From Candidatus Kapaibacterium sp. (GTDB lineage Bacteria; Bacteroidota; Ignavibacteria; Kapaibacteriales; NICIL-2), in NCBI GenBank assembly GCA_026003475.1, contig BPHJ01000001.1:1822501-1886500 (forward strand): a stretch of 64,000 nucleotides of DNA, read 5' to 3'. The notes beneath the pieces were generated by a model. The model was not told the DNA's origin. It did no database searches and saw nothing but the letters and a program-made list of their open reading frames with translations. Positions 4,632-14,431 of the stretch are shown here, in pieces. A program made the translations under genes and the position numbers. The number at the start of each line of letters is the position of its first letter. Positions within the stretch are counted from its first letter, which is position 1.

Positions 4632-4664
4632 TCTGTAAGCCTGTGTTCGCCTCCACAAAAACGC

Positions 4665-4696
4665 TGCGCTCCTGCAGCTCACACCGCAGGAGCGCA
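4665..4696. terminator. Shared hairpin terminator between dut and the double-glycine peptide gene
   Basis: A perfect 11-bp inverted repeat, TGCGCTCCTGC (4665-4675) and GCAGGAGCGCA (4686-4696), with a 10-nt loop. On the minus strand it is followed by GCGTTTTTG, so it looks best as a terminator for the leftward small gene. On the plus strand the following GTTTGTTTG is a weaker U-tract for dut. Confidence 0.65.
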
Positions 4697-4710
4697 CGCG
4701 CGTTTGTTTG

Positions 4711-4750
4711 CTACATGGAGAGTCCGTTCTCATGGCTTCACTCCACGTAG
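4711..4750. repeat. Second inverted repeat in the 3' region of the small peptide gene
   Basis: CTACATGGAG (4711-4720) and CTCCACGTAG (4741-4750) are complementary with one mismatch. The structure lies just after the stop codon of the small gene on the minus strand. It may stabilise the transcript or help termination; no function is shown. Confidence 0.35.
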
Positions 4751-4761
4751 CGATGCCCTAT

Positions 4762-4902
4762 TTAGCCCTTGGGTTCAGGCGGAGGAGCTGGCTCTGTGCC
4801 ACGATCTTCCCCGAAGTCCCAAATAATGCCCCAGCCACCACCGACGACGGTTTGCATCTGCTCGGCGGTGAGGAGCTCCAGACCAATATTGCGGCTGTCC
4901 AT
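4762..4902 (-). CDS. Short double-glycine leader peptide (putative secreted peptide precursor)
   Basis: A 46-codon gene. It has a near-perfect ribosome binding site, AGGAGGT (4913-4907), 4 nt before the ATG, and ends with TAA. Residues 8-22 read LELLTAEQMQTVVGG, matching double-glycine leaders of bacteriocin and Bacteroidota peptide precursors (hydrophobic positions, an acidic residue, then GG) that are cut by C39-type ABC transporters. The predicted mature part, after residue 22, is 24 residues: a tryptophan-containing segment (GWGIIWDFGEDRG) then a proline-rich tail. It has its own upstream region with a candidate promoter and repeated motifs, and a hairpin terminator after it. No transporter or maturation gene lies in this window. 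Precursor identity is inferred from the leader only. Confidence 0.65.
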   Translation of the reverse strand: MDSRNIGLELLTAEQMQTVVGGGWGIIWDFGEDRGTEPAPPPEPKG

Positions 4903-4937
4903 ACGGACCTCCTGCAAAAAAGTGGAACATACACTCC

Positions 4938-5026
4938 ATTCCTACCCCCGACCGATGGGGTGTAGGAATTTCTCCTACAAACTTACGAAAGAAATTCCTA
5001 CTTTGCAAGAGCAAACTCATTCCTGC
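4938..5026 (-). promoter_or_regulatory. Regulatory region with repeated GTAGGA motif
   Basis: On the minus strand, GTAGGAAT-type elements occur at 5001-4994 and 4945-4938, with a GCAGGAAT variant at 5026-5019. Between them is a palindrome, TGTAGGA-N5-TCCTACA (4961-4979). All lie upstream of the double-glycine peptide gene and downstream of the phosphatase stop. The palindrome is the kind of site a dimeric regulator binds; the regulator is unknown. Confidence 0.4.
4978..5008 (-). promoter_or_regulatory. Candidate promoter for the double-glycine peptide gene
   Basis: On the minus strand TTG (5008-5006), 20 nt, then TAAGTTTG (4985-4978), fitting the Bacteroidota TTG/TAnnTTTG consensus. The GTAGGA elements flank it on both sides. 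A start near 4971 would give a leader of about 70 nt containing the palindrome 4961-4979. Confidence 0.45.
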
Positions 5027-8948: not shown

Positions 8949-11900
8949 ATGATTGCTGCCATCATTCGATTGGCACTGCGCTGGCGTGGCGCTGTGCTTG
9001 CTGCTACAGGCGTCATCGCTGCAATTGGCGCATGGAACCTGGCCCAGCTACCGATTGACGCAGTGCCGGATATTACCAACAATCAAGTGCAAGTAATCAC
9101 CATCTCGCCTGCGCTCGGTGCACCCGACGTCGAGCGACTTATCACCTTTCCCATCGAGCAGGCATGCAGCAACATTCCTGGACTGATCGAGCTGCGAAGC
9201 TTTTCCCGCTTTGGGCTGTCAGTTATCACGCTGGTATTCGGCGATGATATTGACACCTACTGGGCACGGCAACAAATCAGCGAACGCCTCGCAACAGTTC
9301 GCTTGCAGCTGCCTCCCGGAACTGGCATTCCTGAGCTTGCACCAGTGACCACTGGCCTTGGGGAAATTTACCAGTACGTCGTCCGCCCCAAGCCCGGCTA
9401 TGAAAGCCGCTACACACTTGCCGACCTTCGGACTATCCAAGATTGGATCGTGCGTCGGCAACTGCTCGGCACTCCTGGCGTCGCTGATGTCGCAAGCTTC
9501 GGAGGACTTCTCAAGCAATACGAGGTCGTCATCGAACCCGACCGACTTGCAACGCTTGGATTGACCATCAGCGATGTCGCCAGTGCGATCGAGCGCAACA
9601 GCAGCAACGCCGGCGGCGCCTACATCGAACGCGGCCCAACTGTTTCGTTCATTCGCACCGAAGGGTTCCTCGGTTCAATCGCGGACATTGAGAACATCCC
9701 CATCACCAACGCACAAGGCTTCCCGGTTTTGGTGAAAGATGTCGCTACTGTCCGCATTGGATCGGCGATCCGCTACGGTGCAATGTGCTACAACGACCGT
9801 GGTGAAGTTGCCGGTGCAGTCGTCATGATGCTCAAGGGCGAGAACTCTGCAGCAGTCATCAAGCGTGTCAAAGAACGTATCGCTCAAATCGAGCGGACAT
9901 TGCCCGAGGGCATCACGATCGAGCCATTTTTAGACCGCACGAAAATGATCCGCTCAACGGTTGCAACCGTCCGTACCAACCTGCTCGAAGGCGCTGCAAT
10001 CGTCATCGCGGTACTTGTATTGCTCATCGGGAATCTCCGTGCTGCATTGCTTGTAGCATCAGTCATCCCGCTGTCGTTCCTGATTGCTGCGAGCTTGATG
10101 CGCGCCGTTGGCGTCAGCGGCAACTTGATGAGCCTGGGTGCGATTGATTTCGGCTTGCTCGTTGATGGTGCGGTAATCATCGTCGAAGGCGTCCTCCACC
10201 AGCTTGGGGTGCTCATGCGGCAATCCCGCTCAACGCCACTTGCGATCGTGGACGTTGTCGAGCAGACTGCTTCACGCTTGATGCGAGCAGCGATCTTTGG
10301 CCAGCTCATCATTTTGATCGTGTACGTCCCAGTGCTCACGTTGCAAGGCATCGAAGGGAAGATGTTCCGCCCGATGGCAGAGGTCCTCCTCTACGCGCTC
10401 GGTGGAGCATTCCTGCTCTCGTTGATCTACGTTCCTGCCATGGCATCCTACGTTCTCAACGGTATTACGATCCAGGAACGCAGCCTTTCGAATCGTCTCG
10501 TTGCTCACTTGGAGCGTTTCTACCGTCCCGTTCTGCACTGGGCGCTGCGCCGTCCAAAAGCAACACTTGGGACTGCACTTGTTCTCTTCGGACTTTCCGC
10601 AGTTGCTGCAACACAACTAGGCGGCGAGTTCATCCCCAAGCTCGAAGAGGGAGACTTCGCAGTGGACACGCGGCTTCTGACTGGCAGCAGCCTTCAGGAG
10701 ACTATCGCCGCAACGCAGCGATGTAGCCGCATTCTCCTGGATTCTTTCCCGGAAGTCGAAAAGGTCGTTACCAAAATCGGGAGCTCTGAAATCCCAACCG
10801 ACCCGATGCCCATCGAGGCATCGGACATGATGGTGATTCTCAAACCGAAAAGCCAGTGGGTGAGTGCACACTCCTTCGATGAACTCGCCGAGCGGATGTA
10901 CGCTGCGCTCAGCCAGGCAATTCCTGGCGTAACGTTCGGCTTCCAATTCCCCGTACAGATGCGATTCAATGAGCTAATGACAGGGGCACGGCAAGACATC
11001 GTCTGTAAAATCTTCGGCGATGATCTCGACACGCTCGCGTACTACGCAGAACGCTTAGCTTCGATTGCCGCGACGATTCCGGGTGCACGCGATATTTACC
11101 GCGAGCGGATGCTCGGTATGCCACAAATCGTCATTCGCTACGACCGAACAATGCTGGCACGCTACGGCATCGCAATCGAAGATGTCAATCGCGCCATCAG
11201 TGCTGCATTCGCGGGTGCCACCGTCGCAACGTTCTACGAAGGCGAACGGCGCTTCGATGTTGTCGTCCGCTACGACAGTGCGGTTCGGAATAACCCTGAA
11301 CGGTTGCGCACGCTCCCGCTCCGCACCGCCAGTGGGACTCTTGTCCCGCTCGAAGAGGTCGCTGAGATTCGAAGTGAATTTGGCCCGAACCAAATTCAGC
11401 GCGAAGCGGCCCGGCGGCGGATCATCGTTGGCTTCAACGTCCGCGGGCGTGACATTGCATCAACTGTCGATGAACTGCAACAACGCGTCGAGCGAGAGCT
11501 GCGTCTGCCGCCAGGGTACTCGATCACCTACGGCGGAACGTTCGAAAATCTCCAGCACGCGCGGGCACGGCTTGCGGTGAGTGTGCCACTTGCACTGGCG
11601 AGCATCTTGGTGTTGCTCTACGCTGCGTTCGGTTCCCTTCGCAATGGCTTGCTTATCTTTACTGCTGTTCCGCTCGCGGCAATTGGCGGGGTGGCAGCAC
11701 TCCTTGCACGCGGGCTTCACTTCAGCGTCTCGGCAGCAGTTGGTTTTATCGCACTCTTCGGTATTGCAGTGCTCAATGGCGTTGTGCTCACAAGCGAGGC
11801 AAATCGTCTGCGGCAAAACCGCTCACTGCTCCGCGCTGTACTCGAGGCAACGCACGTGCGATTTCGTCCCGTGATTCTGACTGCTGCGGTCGCATCGCTC

Positions 11901-13301
11901 GGGTTTCTCCCGATGGCGATTAGCACCAGTCCAGGCGCCGAAGTACAGCGGCCACTTGCAACAGTCGTCATTGGCGGATTAGTGAGCGCAACGTTGCTCA
12001 CGCTCGTTGTGCTCCCGGTGCTCTACATCGCCATCGAACGTCGCCGCGAGCGAAAGCAACGCGCGAGGATTTCACTGACGTCTGTGCTTCCTCTCCTTCT
12101 TTTGCTGGCTGCAGCACCAGCTGGCGCACAGCAGCCAATTTCGCTCGGCGAAGCATTTGATCTGATGGAGCGGCAGCATCCCGACCGATTGCGCTGGCAC
12201 TCCGAAGTGCTCTCTGCCGAGGAGCGACGTGATGGGTGGCTTCAGCTTGCGCCATTGCAACTTGAGCTGGAGTACGGCAAGTTCAATTCCTTCACAAATG
12301 ACTCTCGAGTATCGGCTGCACTTCCGATCGAGCTCCCGCCTGTGCATGTCGCGCGGAAAGCACAGCGGGAAAGCCAGTACGCACAAGCTGTATGGGGCAG
12401 TCAGTGGAACCAGATGCAGCGCCGGGCAGAAGTTGCGCGCTTGTTCTACGAGGTCGCGTATTGGCGCCGCATCGTTGCACTGCTCGAGCGGAACGATTCG
12501 TTGGCAGCACTTGCCGATTCCATCGCACGTTTCCAACTCGAACGCGGCGCTGCCACAGCCGCGCACCGAGCGACAGCGCAGCTGTACCGCAGCTCGGTGA
12601 GTGCTGAGCTTGCTGCTGCAAGAGTTCAGTACCACGCAGCCGTTGCTCTATTCAATCGCGCCCTCGGAGAACCGAGCACACGCTATATCCCAAACGACTC
12701 ACTCTTCGATCGGACGCCGACACTCTTGGTCGCGCTCGATAGCACCCGTCACCCACTTGTACAGCAGGCAGCAGCACGAGTTGATCAGGCACGCTCACAG
12801 CGCGCGCTCACAGAAGCAAGCATGCTTCCAAGTGTTGTGCTTGGCTACAACAGCATGACGCTCACCGGCTACCACAACGTCACCGGCGTTGATCGCTACT
12901 TCGGTCCGGAGACACGTTTTGGATCGATCCGCGCAGGATTGAACGTGCCCCTGCCAACACCCTGGGCAATTGCGGAGCTCCGCGCTACAGACTGGAGCAT
13001 CACAAGCGCTGAGTGGGAGCAGCGCGCGGTGAGTTGGGAGCTTGAACGAATGCGTTTGGACGCACGAGCACGCCGCAGTGCTGCCGCTGTTGCAGTCAGC
13101 ACCTACGAACGTCAAGCGCTCTCTGCTGCAGCTACGCTCGAAGAGATTGCCACCACTGAACTTGCCAATGGTACACTCGACGCTTACCAATGGGCACTCG
13201 CCCTCGACCGTGTCCTTGCCGTCGAGCGTGCCTGGCTGGATGCACGCCGCAGGTTGAACGATGCAATCATTGAATCTGAACTTCTTGGAGATGTGCAATG
13301 A
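8949..13301 (+). CDS. CzcA/CusA heavy-metal RND pump fused to a TolC-like outer membrane factor
   Basis: A 1450-residue protein. Residues 1 to about 1035 form a complete heavy-metal-efflux RND transporter. Transmembrane segment 4 has the proton-relay pattern GAIDFGLLVDGAVIIVE (D400, D406, E413), typical of CzcA-type divalent-cation exporters. Residues around 1042-1060 (LPLLLLLAAAPAGAQQP) look like an internal signal/hydrophobic segment. Residues about 1060-1450 are an outer membrane efflux protein of the TolC/CusC type with long helical repeats. The fusion is seen in other Bacteroidota. The gene overlaps the next one by 4 nt (ATGA). With the adaptor encoded next, it should form a tripartite pump across both membranes. 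Confidence 0.93.
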   Translation: MIAAIIRLALRWRGAVLAATGVIAAIGAWNLAQLPIDAVPDITNNQVQVITISPALGAPDVERLITFPIEQACSNIPGLIELRSFSRFGLSVITLVFGDDIDTYWARQQISERLATVRLQLPPGTGIPELAPVTTGLGEIYQYVVRPKPGYESRYTLADLRTIQDWIVRRQLLGTPGVADVASFGGLLKQYEVVIEPDRLATLGLTISDVASAIERNSSNAGGAYIERGPTVSFIRTEGFLGSIADIENIPITNAQGFPVLVKDVATVRIGSAIRYGAMCYNDRGEVAGAVVMMLKGENSAAVIKRVKERIAQIERTLPEGITIEPFLDRTKMIRSTVATVRTNLLEGAAIVIAVLVLLIGNLRAALLVASVIPLSFLIAASLMRAVGVSGNLMSLGAIDFGLLVDGAVIIVEGVLHQLGVLMRQSRSTPLAIVDVVEQTASRLMRAAIFGQLIILIVYVPVLTLQGIEGKMFRPMAEVLLYALGGAFLLSLIYVPAMASYVLNGITIQERSLSNRLVAHLERFYRPVLHWALRRPKATLGTALVLFGLSAVAATQLGGEFIPKLEEGDFAVDTRLLTGSSLQETIAATQRCSRILLDSFPEVEKVVTKIGSSEIPTDPMPIEASDMMVILKPKSQWVSAHSFDELAERMYAALSQAIPGVTFGFQFPVQMRFNELMTGARQDIVCKIFGDDLDTLAYYAERLASIAATIPGARDIYRERMLGMPQIVIRYDRTMLARYGIAIEDVNRAISAAFAGATVATFYEGERRFDVVVRYDSAVRNNPERLRTLPLRTASGTLVPLEEVAEIRSEFGPNQIQREAARRRIIVGFNVRGRDIASTVDELQQRVERELRLPPGYSITYGGTFENLQHARARLAVSVPLALASILVLLYAAFGSLRNGLLIFTAVPLAAIGGVAALLARGLHFSVSAAVGFIALFGIAVLNGVVLTSEANRLRQNRSLLRAVLEATHVRFRPVILTAAVASLGFLPMAISTSPGAEVQRPLATVVIGGLVSATLLTLVVLPVLYIAIERRRERKQRARISLTSVLPLLLLLAAAPAGAQQPISLGEAFDLMERQHPDRLRWHSEVLSAEERRDGWLQLAPLQLELEYGKFNSFTNDSRVSAALPIELPPVHVARKAQRESQYAQAVWGSQWNQMQRRAEVARLFYEVAYWRRIVALLERNDSLAALADSIARFQLERGAATAAHRATAQLYRSSVSAELAAARVQYHAAVALFNRALGEPSTRYIPNDSLFDRTPTLLVALDSTRHPLVQQAAARVDQARSQRALTEASMLPSVVLGYNSMTLTGYHNVTGVDRYFGPETRFGSIRAGLNVPLPTPWAIAELRATDWSITSAEWEQRAVSWELERMRLDARARRSAAAVAVSTYERQALSAAATLEEIATTELANGTLDAYQWALALDRVLAVERAWLDARRRLNDAIIESELLGDVQ

Positions 13302-14431
13302 AACGCCTTCTGCTTCTTGCCTTTGTTGCATTCGCATGCAATCGAACCGCACAGGTACCCTCGACCGGCACGCCGAGCGATTCAATGCAAACGCTGGTTG
13401 CGCTATCAGCTGAGCAACAGCGAATCAGTGGGATTGCTCTCGACTCCCTCCGTGAAGGTTCGCTTGAGCGTACCATCGAACTGCGCGGCTCGATCGAGCT
13501 GCCACCGCAGAACCTAATCTCCATTTCATTCCCGCTCCAAGCACGCGTTCGCTCAATCAGTGGATTGGTTGGCAGAGCAGTGCGCCGCGGCGATGCTCTT
13601 GTCACACTCGAAAGTATGCCGCTTGTGGAAATGCAGGAGCGGTACCTTTCTACTCGCGCCCAACTGGAGCAAGCACAGCGAGAATACGAACGTCAGCAGA
13701 AGCTTGCTCCATCGGCTGCAACAACCGAGCGCGCTTTGCTCGAGGCACGTACGCAACTGCGCGAACGCCAAATCGCACTGGCTGCACTCGCCGAGCGGCT
13801 CCGGCTGGCCGGCATCGAACCGACAAGATTAGCCGACACCGCGATTTCCCGCACCGTCACACTCACTGCTCCGCGTGATGGGTACATCGCTGCGATCAAC
13901 GTTGTCGTGGGGCAAACCGTCGAGCCGAACACACGCATCATCGAGCTCGTTGATGTGAGCGACGTTCACCTTGTCCTGCGGGCGTACGAGCGCGATGCAC
14001 CGTTGATTCAACCTGGCCAACGACTCGTTGCATGGGCAGTGGCTGATTCTTCCCGGCAATTTCCTGCAGAAGTTGTCGCTGTTTCGCGCACGCTCGACTC
14101 CACTCGTACAATTGAGCTCCACTGCCACTTTGTGCGATACGACCACGCACGACTCCGGCCAGGCATGTTCTTGCGTGCACATCTTTCCGTTGCTTCCGAA
14201 CGTGGATACCTTGTCCCGCAGAGCGCGGTCGTCGCGTGGGAGAACAAGCATGGCGTGTTTATCCCTGAAGGCAACGGTTATCGCCTCATCGAGGTCAGAC
14301 TCGTAGCGAGCGATGGCAGCCGCGCCATCATCGCCTTTGACGGAGGTCGGCTGCCGAGCGTGATTGTCACGCAGGGTGCATATTGGCTACTGATGCAACT
14401 CAAGAACACCAGCCAGGAGGAGGAACCATAG
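13298..14431 (+). CDS. CusB/CzcB-type periplasmic adaptor lipoprotein
   Basis: A 377-residue membrane fusion protein. The N-terminus MKRLLLLAFVAFAC carries a lipobox ending at C14. It is followed by a barrel-sandwich segment (ISFPLQARVRSISGLVGRAVRRGDALVTLES), a coiled coil (about 110-170), the second half of the lipoyl-like domain (VTLTAPRDGYIAAINVVVGQTVEPNTRIIELVD) and beta domains. A GGAG ribosome site lies 7 nt before the ATG, which overlaps the pump gene. It links the RND part of the pump to its outer membrane part. Confidence 0.9.
   Translation: MKRLLLLAFVAFACNRTAQVPSTGTPSDSMQTLVALSAEQQRISGIALDSLREGSLERTIELRGSIELPPQNLISISFPLQARVRSISGLVGRAVRRGDALVTLESMPLVEMQERYLSTRAQLEQAQREYERQQKLAPSAATTERALLEARTQLRERQIALAALAERLRLAGIEPTRLADTAISRTVTLTAPRDGYIAAINVVVGQTVEPNTRIIELVDVSDVHLVLRAYERDAPLIQPGQRLVAWAVADSSRQFPAEVVAVSRTLDSTRTIELHCHFVRYDHARLRPGMFLRAHLSVASERGYLVPQSAVVAWENKHGVFIPEGNGYRLIEVRLVASDGSRAIIAFDGGRLPSVIVTQGAYWLLMQLKNTSQEEEP

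Follow-up and report, generated by a model that had tools for sequence, protein, structure and literature searches.

A 46-codon gene from a hot-spring bacterium of Kapabacteria raises three questions: whether it is a true double-glycine precursor gene, which transporter would export its product, and what the exported peptide would do. The window analyzed is a 64-kb stretch (positions 1,822,501-1,886,500) of a 2.16-Mb single-contig genome. The gene lies on its minus strand (4762..4902), with the ATG at 4902 and the TAA ending at 4762, and its neighbors in the window are a phosphodiesterase-like gene and dut. The initial annotation had described a ribosome site, a start codon, 46 codons, a stop codon, a leader ending in VVGG and a terminator hairpin, and all of these are present. 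The ribosome binding site AGGAGG is located at 4908..4913 (minus strand), and GGAGG is retained in the six genus members. A terminator-like sequence at 4657..4696 (minus strand) is predicted by folding to be an intrinsic terminator, with a 14-bp GC-rich stem (4696-4665) and a T-run. Elsewhere in the window, a 1450-aa frame (8949-13301) named from its sequence as a CusA-like RND pump continues into an outer-membrane-factor-like domain, and is followed by a gene named in the same way as CusB-like (13298-14431).

The translated precursor consists of MDSRNIGLELLTAEQMQTVVGG followed by GWGIIWDFGEDRGTEPAPPPEPKG, with the predicted cleavage point between them. The leader MDSRNIGLELLTAEQMQTVVGG (residues 1-22; 4837..4902, minus strand) carries L-12, M-7, V-4, G-2 and G-1. 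In the structure of a C39 protease, leader residues -4, -7 and -12 sit in hydrophobic pockets (PMC6363468), and our leader satisfies the recognition rule of that study with its L-12, M-7, V-4 and GG. The predicted mature part, residues 23-46, is 24 residues long with two tryptophans and no cysteine, as previously described; it has one threonine and no serine. The combination of a Shine-Dalgarno sequence and a GG leader in the window exceeds chance. The strict leader signature with a Shine-Dalgarno sequence occurred in none of 60 first-order Markov-shuffled 64-kb windows vs once in the real window, where the sole match is this gene; a loose signature with a Shine-Dalgarno sequence occurred at 0.05 per shuffled window.

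Orthologues of the peptide were found in each of the other five genus genomes and, outside the genus, in one of the two genomes from other genera of the family (G007), so that with its own genome counted it is present in 7 of 8 family genomes. It occurs in one copy per genome throughout the genus. In the remaining family genome (G006, 91% complete) the peptide was not detectable by profile search. Columns common to the aligned peptides are M1, G7, E9, L11, T12, A13, E14, M16, Q17, T18, the GG, I27 and W28, and L-12, M-7, V/I-4 and GG are retained in 7/7 orthologues. Within the genus, the leader has a pN of 0.00-0.17 vs a pS of 0.18-0.60, pN over the first ten codons of the core is 0.04-0.43, and variable columns at codon positions 1, 2 and 3 number 11, 7 and 20. 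Judging from these alignments, the reading frame is under purifying selection, and the expectation that the frame would be conserved in relatives was borne out. The peptides of two genomes (G002 and G005) have two additional glycines, inserted in frame. The gene order of phosphodiesterase-like gene, peptide and convergent dut is retained in the genus. In G007 the neighbors of the peptide are unrelated to those in the genus while the frame is kept, so the peptide gene is a stand-alone unit.

The initial annotation also proposed checking whether relatives share the leader and differ in the core. The orthologue alignment agrees with such a pattern insofar as the leader is more conserved than the core and the peptide tail is variable, but the core stretch W-x-I-I-W-D/E is itself well conserved across the genus. 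Core length is ~15-29 residues in most orthologues. Paralogous leaders, a search for which had also been proposed, were not found in the genome by a leader profile search (next match E 0.68). No family in Pfam or NCBIfam is above cut-off for the peptide; NF033456, a CCRG-2 family of ribosomally synthesized and post-translationally modified peptides (RiPPs), matches the leader with an E of 0.032 and 14.2 bits vs a curated cut-off of 24. No relatives of the peptide were found in viral contigs. Weak matches in four genomes (G036, G038, G042 and G043) look like chance when read. In the literature library searched, no paper on secreted peptides of Kapabacteria turned up. The peptide appears to represent an undescribed family of the known C39-exported kind.

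A leader-processing transporter had been expected in the genome, and exactly one match to Peptidase_C39 (PF03412) is found there (E 8.6e-38). The 729-residue protein contains C39, ABC membrane and ATPase domains (PF03412, ABC_membrane and ABC_tran; Pfam). Its motifs SECGTTC, NHFVVVY and ADP contain the catalytic Cys, His and Asp, respectively, and by these motifs the transporter is predicted to be catalytically complete. Its gene is located 291 kb away from the peptide gene and is flanked by purA-like and NRAMP-like genes (named from their sequences). No HlyD gene adjoins it; seven HlyD-like matches (PF13437) lie elsewhere in the genome. A single C39 match is found in each of the 8 family genomes; identity to our transporter is 55-85% for these proteins vs 28-31% for C39 proteins of other families of the order. 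Of the 61 genomes sampled from the order, 31 encode a C39 protein, so the mere presence of one is weak evidence. In the family genomes no GG-leader open reading frame is closer than 4 kb to the transporter, and peptide and transporter are unlinked throughout. Linkage of precursor and transporter is usual for double-glycine peptides but not obligatory. That the two are paired is suggested by the type of leader and by their co-occurrence across the family.

Two family genomes depart from this pattern. In G005 (KatS3mg040), a 2.19-Mb single-contig genome, the transporter (L079 5727-7437) lacks ~157 internal residues and its frame is shifted, and the peptide is kept; the gap may reflect either a true loss or a fault in the assembly. 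In G006, which has no detectable peptide, the transporter (L080 434-2590) has ANP where the others have ADP, with Asn replacing the expected catalytic Asp. This one case fits a decay of the pair.

Similar leaders are found beside C39 genes in a related family of Kapabacteria. In family f8, three genomes (G014, G022 and G029) have small open reading frames with the leaders MQNLEIQTLTLDEMTQIDAG, MKAFNLDTLSLDEMSNIDAG and MKNFDIETLTIEELTEVDGG located 0.3-1.1 kb from a C39 gene, and the MKAFNLDTLSLDEMSNIDAG peptide has two further copies starting with MSFDLKSLTLDEMTQIDAG. HlyD follows the C39 gene in all three (Pfam). Histidine kinases adjoin all three loci as well: TPR- and PAS-kinases identified by Pfam in two, and a partial kinase recognized by reading in the third. 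This adjacency links this kind of leader to C39/HlyD exporters. Outside the window's family, GG/AG-leader peptides adjoin a C39 transporter, HlyD and histidine kinases at L089 5913-13999, L090 5747-9765 and L093 1-7954; L089 has three tandem peptide copies sharing one core. These loci likely are peptide signalling or secretion clusters. A separate locus, L082 11987-14001, has three GG-type precursors, two of them Cys/Ser/Thr-rich (core ...GGGSCQSTASTCFCIPSCLTC...) and lanthipeptide-like; C39-type transporter genes lie no more than 7 kb away.

A profile built from the f8 leaders and our own recovered a further stand-alone peptide in two genomes of family f9 (E 0.016), with MKREFQTLTAAEMTAIVGG before and TTATIVETSSPDAPGIYDLYMDWGWRSDPVDPSKK after the predicted cleavage point. 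In one of them (G015) it lies ~6.7 kb from a C39 gene, and HlyD is probably adjacent in f9 too, as judged by reading rather than by a Pfam scan. The MKREFQTLTAAEMTAIVGG... peptide lies around position 1500 of L118 and L119, and its C-terminal DPVDPSKK resembles the DPxDPR tails of the window's peptide family. C-terminal IW[SDE] motifs are alike between families (TIWSFEA, TIWSFDV and PIWVIIG vs IIWDFGE and LIWDMGD in our own). Outside the motif the cores do not align, and common descent of the cores is therefore only a suggestion.

The DNA around the gene also carries candidate control elements. A putative promoter, TTG-N20-TAAGTTTG (4978..5008, minus strand), is conserved in the alignment of the genus and recognizable in the other genus; we take it to be of the Bacteroidota type. 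Its putative -7 box is flanked in most genus members by a 12-bp inverted repeat, GTAGGAATTTCT ... AGAAATTCCTAC, which includes the palindrome GTAGGAGAAATTCCTAC (4962..5001, minus strand). An exact search of the genome for the palindrome gave no further copy. Judged by the alignment, the inverted repeat resembles an operator that has a single target.

Between the peptide stop codon and the terminator there is a stem-loop (4710..4751, loop 4722-4735, minus strand) that the initial annotation did not describe. It combines a variable stem with an invariant loop, is the most unusual feature of the locus and appears to be undescribed. Downstream of the peptide gene, the six genus members share one and the same 14-nt loop, CCATGAGAACGGAC, and the stem differs among species. 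The stem changes include a swap of A-T to T-A (GAG/CTC to GTG/CAC). An exact search for CCATGAGAACGGAC gave 11 matches across the six genus genomes; 93 further genomes of the order had no match, and neither did a reversed control. A sequence profile recovered the sixth second copy, which has one change. Each genus genome thus has two copies, one behind the peptide gene and one behind a MazG-like gene (G000:C1:423598-423633 in our genome), the latter where a convergent glycosyltransferase-like gene ends (both genes named by reading their sequences). Convergent genes flank each of the two sites. In G007, ACCATGAGAA is retained behind the peptide gene. The hairpin at the MazG gene is absent in G006 and G007, indicating that this copy is genus-specific. 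The folded 3' region is more stable than shuffled sequences (z -5.0), in large part due to the terminator. At the peptide locus, G-U pairs favor the peptide strand, and at the MazG locus two genomes favor the other strand. The stem-loop and the locus match no Rfam family; a tfoR match of 21.4 bits is far below its threshold of 70 and was taken as chance arising from the hairpins. The hairpin was not found in viral contigs. Translation of the hairpin as a short open reading frame (MRTD...) was rejected, as frame lengths are not kept between species. The stem-loop could act as a specialized regulatory element, in RNA or DNA form, tying the peptide to the end of the MazG-like nucleotide pyrophosphohydrolase gene, with a trans-acting factor controlling the output, although we regard this idea as speculative and rather doubtful.

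Taken together, the most probable explanation, which we hold with reasonable confidence, is that the single C39 transporter recognizes the leader of the precursor, cuts after the GG and exports an unmodified peptide of ~24 residues. The peptide gene, distant from that of the transporter, would be transcribed by itself from a promoter of its own and translated into the 46-residue precursor. The sole C39 transporter would recognize the leader through L-12, M-7 and V-4, and its C39 domain would cut the precursor after Gly22. The acidic, proline-tailed product with its W-x-I-I-W-D/E stretch would then be exported unmodified and would act outside the cell as a peptide signal or a surface or matrix peptide, the likeliest roles. 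The earlier proposal of an unmodified or lightly modified secreted peptide, or a pheromone, is still the best reading and is supported.

A peptide of this kind could also be a class II microcin or bacteriocin that leaves the cell through the C39 transporter to kill close competitors. The leader type and a C39 exporter are as in class II microcins and Gram-positive class II bacteriocins, and the variation of the peptide tail between species would agree with such a role. However, reading of the neighbors identified no candidate immunity gene adjoining the peptide in any examined locus, including that of G007, the short cores of most orthologues speak against a killer, and the W-x-I-I-W-D/E stretch is conserved between species, unlike a fast-changing bacteriocin core. 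The presence of one copy in every genus genome resembles a housekeeping trait. We therefore consider a bacteriocin unlikely; the conserved core stretch, the single copy and the lack of immunity or modification genes nearby make a signal or surface peptide more likely.

Modification before export seems quite improbable, although GG leaders are common in RiPPs, NF033456 weakly matches the leader, and the conserved W-x-I-I-W could serve as a modification site for an unlinked enzyme acting on the tryptophans or acidic residues. The core has no cysteine and almost no serine or threonine, no family attains its curated cut-off, and no modifying enzyme was seen in up to 6 kb of flanking sequence on each side in six related loci or beside the window gene, where neighboring genes were judged by reading their sequences and not by a profile search of each. 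That the DNA is conserved as a promoter, operator or 3' hairpin, with an incidental reading frame, is very hard to reconcile with the data. Conservation of the promoter region and of the 3' loop is indeed as strong as that of the coding part, but the codon-position pattern, a pN far below pS, the in-frame insertion of two glycine codons in G002 and G005, the retention of the frame in another genus with different neighbors and the adjacency of the same leader type to C39 genes elsewhere all argue for a translated gene.

The gene adds a peptide family to the bacterial order Kapabacteria. With a layout of one peptide and one transporter, their pairing is easy to test, and a role in signalling can be tested directly thanks to the related-family loci, where similar peptides adjoin C39, HlyD and histidine kinases. 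The hairpin, with two copies and an invariant loop, poses a puzzle of its own, to which the sequence gives a clear handle.

Several known systems resemble this one in part. Class II microcins of the colicin V type have a GG leader and are exported by the C39 transporter CvaB with CvaA and TolC. The Kapabacteria peptide shares with them a GG leader and a C39 exporter in a diderm, but its core is much shorter, no immunity gene or HlyD is adjacent and its transporter is unlinked. Gram-positive GG pheromones of the ComC/BlpC type are exported by ComA/BlpA. They are alike in having L-12, hydrophobic residues at -7 and -4, the GG and a short unmodified core (here predicted), whereas no histidine kinase or response regulator adjoins the Kapabacteria peptide; kinases do adjoin the f8 C39 loci. 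The resemblance to CCRG-2 leaders (NF033456) is weak, with a score well under the curated cut-off. In Synechococcus elongatus, the small GG-motif proteins EbfG1-4 are matured and secreted with the help of the C39-peptidase transporter PteB (PMC4997328). The EbfG genes form a four-gene operon and the Kapabacteria peptide is encoded by one gene; the cores have no recognizable similarity. The detected secreted parts of EbfG1 and EbfG2, TTYNPPSYPYPSYPK and SGYSIPTYPK, are rich in aromatic residues and prolines, and the role of the EbfG proteins is in biofilm, not killing (PMC4997328). By this comparison, EbfG1-4 and PteB appear to be the nearest studied case.
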